Assembly (NCBI RefSeq): GCF_001183865.1
Contig: NZ_CP012020.1
Location: forward strand, 1,488,001-1,552,000
Length of the DNA stretch: 64,000 bases
Direction of reading: 5' to 3'
Origin: Methylophilus sp. TWE2
GTDB taxonomy: Bacteria; Pseudomonadota; Gammaproteobacteria; Burkholderiales; Methylophilaceae
Shown: positions 32,762 through 37,332 of the stretch, one piece after another
Position numbering within the stretch: position 1 is the stretch's first letter
How the letters are laid out: each line of letters starts with the position of its first letter
Made by a program: the position numbers and the translations under genes
Notes under the pieces: model-generated
Told to the model about the DNA's origin: nothing
Seen by the model: only the letters and a program-made list of their open reading frames with translations
The model's database searches: none

Positions 32762-34570
32762 ATGGCACGCAATCTTAGAAATATCGCAATTATCGCCCAC
32801 GTTGACCACGGTAAAACCACCATGGTTGATAAATTACTCCAGCAATCTGGCACGTTTGCTTCACACCAAGCGGTGACAGAGCGGGTGATGGATAGTAATG
32901 ATCTGGAAAAAGAGCGCGGTATTACTATTTTGGCAAAAAACACGGCCTTAACCTATGAAGGCACGCACATCAATATTGTAGATACTCCTGGGCACGCCGA
33001 CTTTGGTGGTGAGGTGGAGCGTGTGTTGGGGATGGTGGATGGCGTATTGTTGCTGGTGGATGCCGTTGATGGCCCGATGCCGCAAACGCGTTTTGTGACC
33101 AAGAAAGCCTTGGCCCTCGGTTTAAAACCTATTGTGGTGATTAACAAGGTGGACCGCCCAAGTGCGCGTCCTGATTGGGTGATCAACCATACATTTGATT
33201 TGTTTGCCAACCTGGGCGCGACCGATGAGCAATTGGACTTTCCGGTTGTTTATGCCTCAGCATTGAATGGTTTCGCAACGCTGGACCTGAAGACACCTTC
33301 AGACAATATGCGCGCGCTGTTTGACACGATTTTAAGTCATGTTGAACCGCCTAAAGGTGACAGCGAAGCGCCACTGCAATTGCAAATTTCGGCTCTGGAT
33401 TACTCTACTTATACCGGTCGTTTGGGCGTGGGCCGTATCACCAATGGCCGCATCAAGCCAGGCCAGGTAGTGGCAGTGATGCGCGAAGACGAACAAGTGG
33501 CACAAGGCCGTATCAACCAGGTGCTTGGTTTTAAAGGCTTGGAGCGCGTGCCGGTTGAAGAAGCTGAAGCCGGTGACATTGTGATCATTTCAGGCATTGA
33601 AGAAATCGGTATTGGCTTCACCATCTGTGATCGTGATAAGCCTGTAGGTTTGCCACATCTGGGTGTAGATGAGCCGACTTTGACCATGGACTTTATGGTG
33701 AACACTTCGCCACTGGCCGGTACTGAAGGTAAATTCATCACCTCACGTCAAATTCGTGATCGTTTAACCAAAGAGTTATTGGTTAACGTAGCTTTGCGCG
33801 TTGAAGATACAGAAGACACCGATGTATTCCGTGTATCAGGCCGTGGTGAGCTGCACCTGACCATTTTGCTGGAAAACATGCGTCGTGAAGGCTTTGAAAT
33901 CGCCGTTGGTAAACCACGTGTGGTGTTCAGAGAAATCAATGGTGAAAAATGTGAGCCTTATGAAATCCTGACGGTCGACGTTGAAGATGAAAACCAGGGT
34001 GCAGTCATGGAAGAGTTGGGTCGCCGCCGTGGTGAAATGACCAACATGGAATCTGATGGTAACGGTCGTACACGTTTGGAATATCGCATCCCAGCACGTG
34101 GCCTGATTGGTTTCCAGGGTGAGTTCTTAACCTTAACCCGTGGTACAGGTTTGATGGCGCATATTTTTGACGAATATGCCCCTGTAAAAGCAGACATGCC
34201 AGGCCGTCGTAATGGTGTGCTTATTTCAGCTGAACAAGGCGAGGCTGTTGCCTATGCCTTATGGAAGTTGCAAGATCGCGGCAAAATGTTCTCTAGCCCA
34301 GGCGACAGATTGTATGAAGGCATGATCATCGGCATTCACAGCCGCGACAACGATCTGGTTGTTAACCCAATTAAAGGTAAACAACTCACCAACGTGCGTG
34401 CCTCTGGGACTGATGAAGCGGTACGCTTGATTCCACCAGTTTCACTCAGCCTGGAAAGTGCCGTAGAGTTTATTGACGATGATGAATTGGTTGAAATCAC
34501 ACCGAAAACCATCCGTCTGCGCAAACGCTACCTGTTAGAGCACGAGCGTAAACGTGCTTCTAAAGACTAA
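32762..34570 (+). CDS. typA: Ribosome-associated translational GTPase TypA/BipA
   Basis: Protein of 602 residues. The G domain has [15 protein letters not shown] (G1), RGITI (G2), [12 protein letters not shown] (G3) and [12 protein letters not shown] (G4). Then come EF-G-like domains 2, 3 and 5 and the TypA-specific C-terminal domain ([14 protein letters not shown]). The ATG at 32762 gives the family N-terminus [13 protein letters not shown]. Another ATG four codons upstream is possible. TypA aids ribosome assembly and stress adaptation, a fitting neighbour to the helicases. Confidence 0.96.
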
Positions 34571-34583
34571 GTCATTTGATCGT

Positions 34584-34614
34584 AAAAAACGCCAGCAGAA
34601 GCTGGCGTTTTTTT
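34584..34614 (+). terminator. Terminator of typA
   Basis: AAAAAACGCCAGC pairs with GCTGGCGTTTTTT (loop AGAA), followed by further T. This is a textbook intrinsic terminator. Confidence 0.93.
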
Positions 34615-34911
34615 ATTGCAAGAATACTGGCTGATTAAGTATTCAAAAGTGCGCTTGAAATGGTTTAAAAAATAGCTTTAAATCAGCACAGGCTTCTTTA
34701 GCGCGTTGGCCACAAAGCTCATCCGTAACGTTTGATAAGGAAAAACTTTAGGGCCGGTTTTAGCTGAGTTGTGTTTTCCATTGCGATATCCAGTTTTAAG
34801 GGTGTAATAAAAAATCTCTAAGCATTGATTTTATTATGATAAATAATTTTAATAAGTTTATAGACTCAGGACTCAATAAAAATTTAGGTTCGTTTTTGGG
34901 GTCTAATTAAC
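34615..34911. other. A/T-rich gap left of the cassette region
   Basis: The 297 bases between the typA terminator and the first cassette boundary hold no gene, no attC left end that I can find and no integrase fragment. The last 60-100 bases are markedly A/T-rich compared with typA. They end at TCTAATTAAC directly before the GTTAGCC core. Confidence 0.4.
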
Positions 34912-35445
34912 GTTAGCCATAGGCAATTTAAATGCGTACTCTTTTTCTAGTTTTATTGCTATTTACTTTAGTCGGTTGCGCGTCAAGTGGACCAACCTAT
35001 CAAGACGCTCCGAAACCTGAAGCATCAGCTTCCGCAATCTACATATATCGGCCTGACAAATTTCTGCTTGGAGCCTTTGATGCACAATTCACCATTGATG
35101 GGAATAAAACCGCTGATCTAAGTGGTGGGAGCTATACCTATTTCTATGTCAGCGAAGGTTGTCACCATATCCATCAATTTTGGTCTTACTACGCAAATTT
35201 CGGTAAAAAAACCGACCTGAATCTTTGCACCAAAGCGGGTGAAAACTACTATGTCCGGCTCAATGGATTAAATGTAGCAACTTGGACACTCAACCCTGTA
35301 GAGAAAGCAAATGCACTCTCCGATATTAGCAATTGCACATATATACCGTCGGTTGCTTCTGCTTCGTCAAAACAGAACAAATAAATGGCTAACCCATCCA
35401 TCAAGCGGGACGCTGCGCTGACGCGCACCGCCCCTTATGTCAAAC
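34912..35445 (+). mobile_element. Integron gene cassette 1
   Basis: A 534-bp unit bounded by the GTTRRRY cores GTTAGCC (34912) and GTTAGCA (35446). It holds one gene starting 20 bp in and an attC site directly after the stop codon, the standard cassette plan. The attC left end GGCTAAC is the exact complement of the cassette's own first seven bases GTTAGCC, as required if both came from one circular cassette. No integrase gene or attI is seen in the window. Confidence 0.8.
34932..35384 (+). CDS. Cassette-borne DUF2846-like lipoprotein
   Basis: Protein of 150 residues with a lipoprotein signal: a hydrophobic stretch LFLVLLLFTLVGCA with the lipobox LVGC and Cys16 as the lipidated residue. The mature part (AIYIYRPDKFLLGAFDAQFT, later YYVRLNG) resembles DUF2846 lipoproteins. 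It has three further cysteines (EGCHH, NLCTK, SNCTY) that could form disulfides. It is the only gene of cassette 1 and has no promoter of its own that I can see. The function is unknown. Confidence 0.8.
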   Translation: MRTLFLVLLLFTLVGCASSGPTYQDAPKPEASASAIYIYRPDKFLLGAFDAQFTIDGNKTADLSGGSYTYFYVSEGCHHIHQFWSYYANFGKKTDLNLCTKAGENYYVRLNGLNVATWTLNPVEKANALSDISNCTYIPSVASASSKQNK

Positions 35446-35452
35446 GTTAGCA
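35387..35452 (+). repeat. attC recombination site 1
   Basis: A 66-bp imperfect palindrome. The left core GGCTAAC pairs with the right core GTTAGC. The inner arms ATCAAGCGGGACG and CCGCCCCTTATG pair with bulges like the extrahelical bases integrases use. The tip is TGCGC-TGAC-GCGCA. The right end CAAACGTTAGC is the usual attC ending. Recombination would cut between G35446 and T35447. Confidence 0.82.
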
Positions 35453-35480
35453 ACAACATTAACGTTAGGTTTAAAGTCCC

Positions 35481-35792
35481 ATGGCTTTTAAAAAACTTAT
35501 ATTGTTAACTTGCAGTTTTGGGCCTTTAATCTTTCTCGGATCATGTATGAATTCCGTAAAGATTGCTGACATCGAGAATAGTTTAAACATGCAAATTGGC
35601 CGACACTATAATCAACTTGGTCCAGGCTGGACAATAGTATCTGAGGACGATAAAAATATTGTGTTGGGACGAAGTATCTCAAAGACTTGCTCGTATATAG
35701 TTCATATACCTAAAGATACATATCGAATAGATAGCTGGAAGTTAACGACCCCAAGAAATGCATGTGACAATATCCCCATTACAGGTGCTTAG
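35481..35792 (+). CDS. Cassette-borne small lipoprotein, unknown function
   Basis: Protein of 103 residues that I do not recognise. The N-terminus MAFKKLILLTCSFGPLIFLG ends in a lipobox (FLGSC, Cys22), so an outer- or inner-membrane lipoprotein is likely. The mature part has WTIVSEDDKNIVLGRSI and two later cysteines (KTCSY, NACDN) that could pair. Base composition is more A/T-rich than the flanking housekeeping genes, consistent with transfer. It is the sole gene of cassette 2. Confidence 0.72.
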   Translation: MAFKKLILLTCSFGPLIFLGSCMNSVKIADIENSLNMQIGRHYNQLGPGWTIVSEDDKNIVLGRSISKTCSYIVHIPKDTYRIDSWKLTTPRNACDNIPITGA

Positions 35793-35806
35793 GCGTCAAA
35801 AGTTGA

Positions 35807-35836
35807 TGCTAACCCATCAGTCAAGCGGGACCGGCG
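35807..35836 (+). repeat. Truncated attC site 2 (left half)
   Basis: The first 30 bases match attC 1 closely: both have GCTAACCCATC, then CAGT in place of CA, then CAAGCGGGAC. After CCGGCG the similarity stops. A CTTTTATGAACAGTCGAGT stretch (35845-35863) may be the ruined right end, since GTCGAGT differs from the GTTRRRY core at one base. Confidence 0.65.
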
Positions 35837-35864
35837 AAAAGATTCTTTTATGAACAGTCGAGTA

Positions 35865-35890
35865 GGGTGGGCAACTTGTTTTGCCCACGC
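35865..35890. repeat. GTGGGCAA/TTGCCCAC intergenic hairpin
   Basis: An 8-bp inverted repeat round CTTGTT, embedded in GTAGGGTGGGCA...TGCCCACGC. As I recall, similar hairpins are dispersed in many proteobacterial genomes. It has no T tract. It sits just right of the decayed attC and may mark a later rearrangement. Confidence 0.5.
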
Positions 35891-35941
35891 GTATTGATCA
35901 ATCCCGACAACCACTAAAACCACCCAGTTCGATGTAAACCG

Positions 35942-36322
35942 ATGACTATGCATACAACAAATAAAATCCAAAGTTTGGCTTTGCTAGGCGGAGTGTCTAA
36001 GGTCTCTTTTGAGCGGGTTGCCGCCACTGACTGGCGTTTTTTACACAGCAAAGCGGGAATACTGATTTGCCTTTGGAGCGTGTTGCCTTATTTGCTGATG
36101 GCTTGTGCGACTGAACTGTTGAAGACTACTCGTGCTCAGTCTTGGTGGCTTGCGGTTTCAGCGGTAATGGTTATGTTGGCTATAGCGGCTTATTACCACA
36201 CCTTGTTTGTACGCCCGGATGCGCAAGGCGCATTGATTTTTCTGTTTTTGCCTTTGGTGCAGTGTTTGATTACCTTTGGCGCGTTTATATTGATACGATT
36301 TCTGGCAGGGCTGGATAAATGA
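35942..36322 (+). CDS. Small membrane protein of unknown function
   Basis: Protein of 126 residues with three hydrophobic segments (about 37-56, 69-86 and 97-120). It has no motif I recognise. It may start at the ATG two codons later. It lies between the cassette remains and ppk2 and has no attC after it, so it is probably outside the cassette array. A GTGTCTAAGG-type site is not convincing as a ribosome binding site, and coding status rests on length and hydrophobicity. Confidence 0.5.
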   Translation: MTMHTTNKIQSLALLGGVSKVSFERVAATDWRFLHSKAGILICLWSVLPYLLMACATELLKTTRAQSWWLAVSAVMVMLAIAAYYHTLFVRPDAQGALIFLFLPLVQCLITFGAFILIRFLAGLDK

Positions 36323-36519: not shown

Positions 36520-37332
36520 ATGGAAAAGCTGGAAAAATACCGCGTTAACTCTAAAAAATTCTCCCTCAAGCAATATTCTGCAGATGATCGATCCGCGCGT
36601 AATGAAGATAAAGCGCAAGATTTGGCCGAGTTGGCAAAGCTGACTGAGGCGATTAATGCGCGGCAGGATATTTTGCATGCGGAGGGCAAGCATAAGGTGA
36701 TTTTGCTGTTGCAGGGCATGGATACAAGTGGCAAGGATGGTACAGTCAAACAAGTATTTAGTGCTTGTGACCCGTTGGGCATCCGTCTGGCGAGTTTTAA
36801 GGCGCCTAGTGCTGATGAGTTGGCGCATGATTATTTGTGGCGCGTGCATGCCCAAGTGCCGGCCAAGGGTGAGTTGGTTATTTTTAACCGTAGCCATTAT
36901 GAAGACGTGTTGATTGTGAAGGTGCATGGCTGGATTGATGGAGCGGAATGCAAACGCCGTTACCAGCAGATTAACGATTTTGAGCGTATGTTGACCGAGA
37001 CCGGTACGACTTTGATCAAGTGTTTTTTACATATCTCAAAAGAGGAGCAGAAGGAACGCTTGCAAGAGCGCTTGGATGAGCCGACCAAGCATTGGAAATT
37101 TAACCCTAAAGATCTTGAAGAGCGTGCGCTTTGGGATGAGTACATGCAAGCGTATGAATCAGCTATGCAAGCCACCTCTACCGAATATGCCCCTTGGTAT
37201 GTGATTCCGGCCAACTCAAAAACCAACCGCAATCTGCTGATTTCTCGCCTGTTGCTGGAGACCTTAAATGCGTTGCCACTGGCTTATCCACCTAAACCAA
37301 AAGAGTGGGATGCGTTAAAAATTAAAGACTAA
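36520..37332 (+). CDS. ppk2: Polyphosphate kinase 2 family protein
   Basis: Protein of 270 residues that transfers phosphate between polyphosphate and nucleotides. It has the PPK2 P-loop LLLQGMDTSGKDGTVKQVF (about 62-80), the lid region with ECKRRYQQINDFERML, and the Walker-B-like NRSHYEDVLIVKVHGW. RLDEPTKHWKFNPKDLEER is typical of class I. The start is the ATG giving MEKLEKYRV. An in-frame TTG 14 codons earlier is less likely. It appears monocistronic. Confidence 0.92.
   Translation: MEKLEKYRVNSKKFSLKQYSADDRSARNEDKAQDLAELAKLTEAINARQDILHAEGKHKVILLLQGMDTSGKDGTVKQVFSACDPLGIRLASFKAPSADELAHDYLWRVHAQVPAKGELVIFNRSHYEDVLIVKVHGWIDGAECKRRYQQINDFERMLTETGTTLIKCFLHISKEEQKERLQERLDEPTKHWKFNPKDLEERALWDEYMQAYESAMQATSTEYAPWYVIPANSKTNRNLLISRLLLETLNALPLAYPPKPKEWDALKIKD

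Follow-up and report, generated by a model that had tools for sequence, protein, structure and literature searches.

Two small genes flanked by integron recombination signals, at a chromosomal position without a working integrase, raise the question of how this place came to receive its cassettes. The locus lies in Methylophilus sp. TWE2 (genome G000; 3,079,044 bp in one contig) within the window, i.e., the whole stretch of 64,000 nucleotides analyzed here (C1:1488001-1552000; 48.9% G+C), to which positions refer unless a contig or locus is named. The customary picture of an integron is one integrase with one adjoining attI; for the integrase (IntI), attI is a double-stranded substrate, attC is recognized through its folded bottom strand, and the crossover is at G|TT. 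The element spans 34652 to about 35854, between bipA (ending at 34570) and ppk2 (starting at 36520), and consists, from left to right, of an intI remnant on the minus strand, an attI leader, a first cassette with its attC site (attC1), and a second cassette with the left half of another (attC2). A first-pass annotation, made from the sequence alone, had placed a two-cassette element at 34912-35863; the cassettes are there, while attI and the intI remnant lie at the left edge of that interval or outside it. Downstream of cassette 2 stand a GTAGGGTGGGCAAC-type repeat and then a small ORF (35942-36322). The repeat, at 35855-35900, is where the cassette stretches of both TWE2 and its relative G005 end, and further copies of it occur in the TWE2 genome and in the genus.

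Table 1. Features of the element between bipA and ppk2 (window positions)
Feature	Position	Strand	Basis
intI remnant, nt 1-143 (about codons 1-48 of 327), decayed	34652..34781	-	blastn and three-frame reading
intI-attI intergenic region with attI	34801..34916	+	84.5% identity with the main leader across 116 bp
attI core GTTAGCC, crossover G|TT	34912..34918	+	sequence; exact complement of attC1 R''
Cassette 1, whole	34913..35446	+	boundaries are cores; 83% copy in G020 intI-linked array
Cassette 1 gene, 150 aa, predicted lipoprotein, DUF2846 (PF11008)	34932..35384	+	Pfam
attC1, complete	35387..35452	+	model R1 score; fold
Cassette 2, 3' end cut off	35447 to about 35854	+	92% G003 match ends at 35854
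Cassette 2 gene, 103 aa, predicted lipoprotein, no known family	35481..35792	+	Pfam, NCBIfam, PADLOC
attC2 left half (long class), right half missing	35807..35854	+	alignment with six 111-bp main-array sites

The two ORFs had been described as lipoprotein genes, each preceded by a GTTRRRY core, and both have lipoprotein-like starts (lipoboxes judged by eye) and such a core. The cassette 1 protein matches its Pfam family with 44.3 bits (cut-off 34.3), and the cassette 2 protein had no match above the curated cut-off in Pfam or NCBIfam. A defence role of the cassette proteins was considered and set aside, as PADLOC returned no match. Cassette 1 recurs whole in the intI-linked array of G020, and cassette 2 recurs in an array of G003, there with a complete long-class attC; both are thus units found in other arrays, as integron gene cassettes are. 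The dN/dS values between the copies, 0.17 for the cassette 1 gene (against G020) and 0.15 for the cassette 2 gene (against G003), point to purifying selection on both genes. The arms and loop of the cassette 1 attC differ between TWE2 (35387-35452) and G020 (L083 9603-9660), the gene being the same. The interior of cassette 2 holds a second attI-like core (ATTAACGTTAGG, 35456-35468), which is part of the cassette, since the G003 copy has it too.

An attC-like site had been proposed behind each gene, and the two fared differently. Behind the first gene the site is complete. Covariance model R1, trained on 15 main-array sites of TWE2 with attC1 outside the training set, gave it 60.3 bits (E 5.6e-13), and thus the model score, named beforehand as a check, did not speak against the site. 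The score and the fold agree on an imperfect hairpin with R''/R' and L''/L' pairing, of which bulged inner arms and a hairpin tip had been described; the bottom strand folds with a z score of -3.46 (0 of 200 shuffles as good), and the top strand with -1.97. Behind the second gene, only the left half of a site is present. Up to about 35854 it tracks attC sites of the long class (111 bp) as well as the cassette copy in G003, and there it stops; homology to the right flank of G005 starts at 35855. Model R1 reported nothing for attC2 at E up to 1, and the score of model R2 was not used because the truncated attC2 is in its training alignment. Rfam at gathering thresholds returned three tRNAs only over the whole window, which is uninformative on attC, and a genome pattern search with a guessed cassette start gave no match. 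Cassette 1 has attI intact on one side and a complete attC on the other and should be excisable today; the half attC of cassette 2 should not suffice for excision of that cassette by itself.

The earlier reading had leaned on the exact complementarity between the R'' arm of each attC and the core of its own cassette (GGCTAAC with GTTAGCC and TGCTAAC with GTTAGCA), held to be improbable by chance. Both matches are exact, and the argument stood up in the genus at large: across 13 arrays, 45 of 64 cassette starts, the window's two included, showed an exact match, and 59 of the 64 matched with at most one mismatch; the 20,000 permutations averaged 7.2 exact matches and never exceeded 18. This set left out the G003 array in L071, the arrays of G015, G020, and G001, the intI-linked site of G011, and two weak sites (L182 8360-8409 and L249 5814-5870); without the L182 site, one row was paired wrongly, and it was counted as a mismatch. 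The joint chance for the window's two cores is about 0.078 x 0.031. Among first cassettes behind an attI, R'' was exact in 8 of 12, that of the window included, and not exact in the other 4.

The window had been reported to hold no integrase, but the 5' end of one is present in its decayed form. In a DNA search against the same genome, 34652-34916 matched the start of the intact integron at 74%, and the remnant itself aligned to the intact intI with 67.8% identity over 143 nt (blastn, E 1.1e-4), with a stop in each of the three frames. A profile of attI, built from 11 intI-linked sites of the genus with no orphan site included, scored the window attI (34833-34915) at 67.3 bits (E 6.6e-19 in 677 kb). 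The 33 bp running into the attI core (34884-34916) show no difference from the attI linked to the intact intI of TWE2. A simple promoter scan found none in the window attI leader and none in the main leader; promoter-like matches in 34560-36000 numbered 5 versus 3.6 expected, and no Pc is claimed.

What class of element is this? The label initially given, CALIN, is right insofar as the cassettes lack a functional adjoining integrase: only a remnant is in place, and the intact gene is 104 kb off. As a bare attC cluster it does not hold, since a high-scoring attI and the beginning of intI are retained, which makes the locus a truncated integron. Its one complete attC and one half (one report from model R1) also fall short of the IntegronFinder 2 default of at least two attC sites. 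Set against a complete integron, the locus has the attI site (67.3 bits), but the intI beside it amounts to about 48 codons with stops. The best explanation of the locus is a satellite integron, i.e., an attI platform minus its own intI, carrying one complete and one truncated cassette. It shares with CALINs, as the cited part of PMC9024848 describes them, cassettes with attC and no functional adjoining integrase, and differs in its attI, leader, and intI remnant, which are outside that definition, and in having fewer than two attC sites. With a sedentary chromosomal integron it has in common its attI, its cassettes, and attC sites of the TWE2 main-array types, but a working intI in place is lacking.

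A genome-wide search for intI, as had been recommended, located the intact integrase beside trhO with a 22-attC array (IntI 482.8 bits; cut-off 265). The 15-site covariance model found 28 attC matches at E <= 0.01 in the whole genome, namely 22 in the main array (1419758-1429304), 1 in the window, 3 at 1880855-1882627, and 2 weak single ones. Among the protein relatives of this IntI that were listed, from which the closest records may be missing, the best reached 78% (labeled "Pseudomonadota"), and Methylotenera MAGs reached 76, 69, and 67%. The main array (L007 1758-11304) mixes attC classes of about 60 and 111 bp, and the long ones share inner sequence. The three sites at C1:1880855-1882627 (minus strand, L169), with no attI in 19 kb, form an ordinary CALIN.

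To place the locus in its genus, 22 genomes were searched, the window's own included, and 20 of these carry an IntI above the cut-off. The position behind bipA (site I) is occupied in 2 of the 22, TWE2 and G005, with the search reaching 182 bp downstream in G012 and 416 to 587 bp in G017, G018, and G021. Conservation of both genes here in relatives without attC sites had been named as a finding that would count against an integron origin; they are not fixed, and the contents of the site differ. In G005, at the same place, intI breaks off at nucleotide 143 just as in TWE2, and attI is joined precisely to another cassette, whose core is GTTATAT and whose R'' is ATATAAC; behind it come the beginning of a further, truncated cassette and then the right flank shared with TWE2. 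The last 35 bp of the site I attI match the main attI at 34 of 35 positions and that of G005 at 32 of 35 (one of the three differences being an end gap). Behind bipA, 79 of 80 bp are identical between the two genomes; divergence is greater in the remainder of the remnant. Exchange is thus possible, i.e., the truncated site I allele may have passed between lineages after its cassettes had changed, and the order "intI lost first, cassettes later" is unproven at site I. The near-identical stretch corresponds to window positions 34571-34690. G021, the sister of TWE2 in a fabI and mutL tree, has a bipA-ppk2 gap of 122 bp without site I. In G013 (C20:45659-47380), 28 bp separate an intact intI from ppk2, in an arrangement unlike that of the window, and an intact integron near a ppk2 thus exists in the genus.

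Attachment sites without an integrase are not confined to bipA. A total of 12 were found in 10 of the 22 genomes. Site II, behind fabI, is present in six (G000, G002, G003, G005, G007, and G016; search reach 185 bp in G017), one of them decayed (G000), and no intI remnant was detected there in any of the six. Its leader is common to the carriers and its contents are mostly different; two matches exceed 150 bp, one over the last 505 bp between G007 and G016, the other over 157 bp at the right-hand margin between G002 and G003. In TWE2, site II stands at about 1556.4 kb behind fabI (L178), just outside the window, with its attI core decayed to CTT; no attC match was found in 19 kb around this dead platform. 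Site III, behind mutL, occurs in two genomes (G008 and G017), with a search reach of 190 bp in G001 and 424 bp in G021. Two further sites were found by a pattern allowing up to 3 mismatches, so that more decayed sites elsewhere would be missed: site IV (G001), an attI beside a transposase-like ORF (judged from sequence) with no attC in the stretch examined, and site V (G011), an attI with four attC matches. None of the 22 assemblies has intI beside bipA, fabI, or mutL, the nearest being about 52 kb off. Orphan arrays and intI-linked arrays have cassettes in common.

Two broader generalizations were tried and given up. Strong conservation of attI does not serve as a main argument, being clear in the last 35 bp at site I and modest at site II, where mean pairwise identity is 0.80 for attI versus 0.68 to 0.77 for the leader (five genomes). 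Likewise, an orphan attI goes with that of its host genome in G000 and G008 but not in G003 and G005.

In G005, the cassettes lie away from the integrase locus. Its intI (C1:499099-500209, L068) is open and the product scores 424.8 bits, above the cut-off; the linked attI reads CTTAGG, the GTT core being lost, and has no attC match at E <= 1 in 16 kb around. Site II of the same genome has five attC matches (27 to 87 bits) and site I has one (24.8 bits).

The core junctions are precise, the same truncated platform carries another cassette in G005, and further platforms are conserved in the genus. The occurrence of different cassettes at the same and similar spots in relatives suggests that one distant recombinase stocks several sites. 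We consider it probable that a single integrase does so for several dispersed attI platforms, the intact IntI beside trhO loading and unloading them in trans; from the sequence comparisons, we infer that IntI would act in trans on these attI sites and would still do so today. The wider formulation, in which one IntI serves lasting platforms behind bipA, fabI, mutL, and other genes and capture in G005 has moved to them, could equally well prove right or wrong. The platform behind bipA has lost its own intI and kept its attI; IntI made beside trhO would act on every attI copy in the chromosome, with cassettes loaded and unloaded through ordinary attI x attC recombination that crosses over at G|TT. 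In G005, capture would have shifted from the integrase locus, whose attI has no GTT core, to the integrase-less platforms. Action of the integrase from a distance is in line with plasmid assays in which IntI1 came from a second plasmid, according to the cited portion of PMC12901181. Several observations weigh on the other side: the possible exchange of the site I allele, the lack of site I in G021, the modest attI conservation at site II, the CTT core of site II in TWE2, the 4 first cassettes of 12 without an exact R'' match, the intI near ppk2 in G013, and the lack of an attC in the stretch examined at site IV.

The alternative that survives best, although it is unlikely, is that a full integron once stood here and shuffled its cassettes before intI was lost, with no movement since, and that TWE2 and G005 then came to differ by differential loss from a longer ancestral array. 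The decayed intI remnant, the cut-off cassette 2 with its attC2, the truncated second cassette in G005, the possible exchange of the 80-bp block, and the decay of site II in TWE2 would all suit such a dead relic, but the attI-cassette junctions differ and are yet precise behind the same intI truncation in both genomes, and site II has different contents across six genomes with no detectable intI remnant. By comparison only, site II would support the same conclusion as site I, stocking in trans, and is free of the weakness that exchange brings.

Decidedly less probable is that IntI acts only locally and that whole arrays were exchanged between species by homologous recombination in the flanks. 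Such exchange would account for the near-identical block behind bipA and for the replacement-like bipA-ppk2 region of G021; however, since no donor with intI at bipA, fabI, or mutL is found among the 22 genomes, the arrays would still need to be made on an integrase-less platform. That the cassettes sit at a nonclassical genomic site (attG) and that the likeness to attI is accidental is very improbable: insertion by IntI at such sites is already in print, in the part of the literature consulted, but the attI score (67.3 bits, E 6.6e-19), the 84.5% identity of the 116-bp leader, and the correct orientation of the intI remnant speak against it. Two ordinary lipoprotein genes with chance hairpins are hardly credible, short as cores and half sites are, given the attC1 and attI scores, the permutation test, and the cassette copies elsewhere.

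CALINs, their movement in trans, and their presence at conserved loci are already in print, as the cited parts of PMC9024848 and PMC12444791 show; CALIN cassettes are thought to be movable in trans (PMC12444791, in part). In Xanthomonas, inactivated intI genes and CALINs at seven conserved loci have been described (PMC12444791), and the likeness lies in conserved cassette positions away from intI and in many decayed integrases; the part of that paper drawn on here reports no attI at these loci and ascribes their position to ancestral integron activity. The Delta-attI cassettes of class 1 and 2 integrons likewise have attI pieces away from intI that recombine when IntI1 is provided from another plasmid (PMC12901181, same portion), but there the attI piece replaces attC at the 3' end of a cassette. 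In the window, most of the attI leader precedes a chromosomal cassette instead. A literature search, with subscription papers mostly outside its scope and absence thus unproven, returned no description of conserved integrase-less attI platforms. According to the section of PMC9024848 used here, the attI search of IntegronFinder 2 is off by default and detects none outside class 1, so that integrase-less platforms of this kind would go unseen.

If attI platforms last without intI and are restocked in trans, a genome would offer several places for a first cassette at the same time, and some of the integrase-less cassette clusters found at conserved loci may function as capture sites rather than being debris. 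Platforms of this type would also offer a direct test for the conserved Xanthomonas CALIN loci, as far as these are described in PMC12444791. Within the genus, G001 (C15, C42, and C25) carries two different intact intI genes together with an integrase-less attI.
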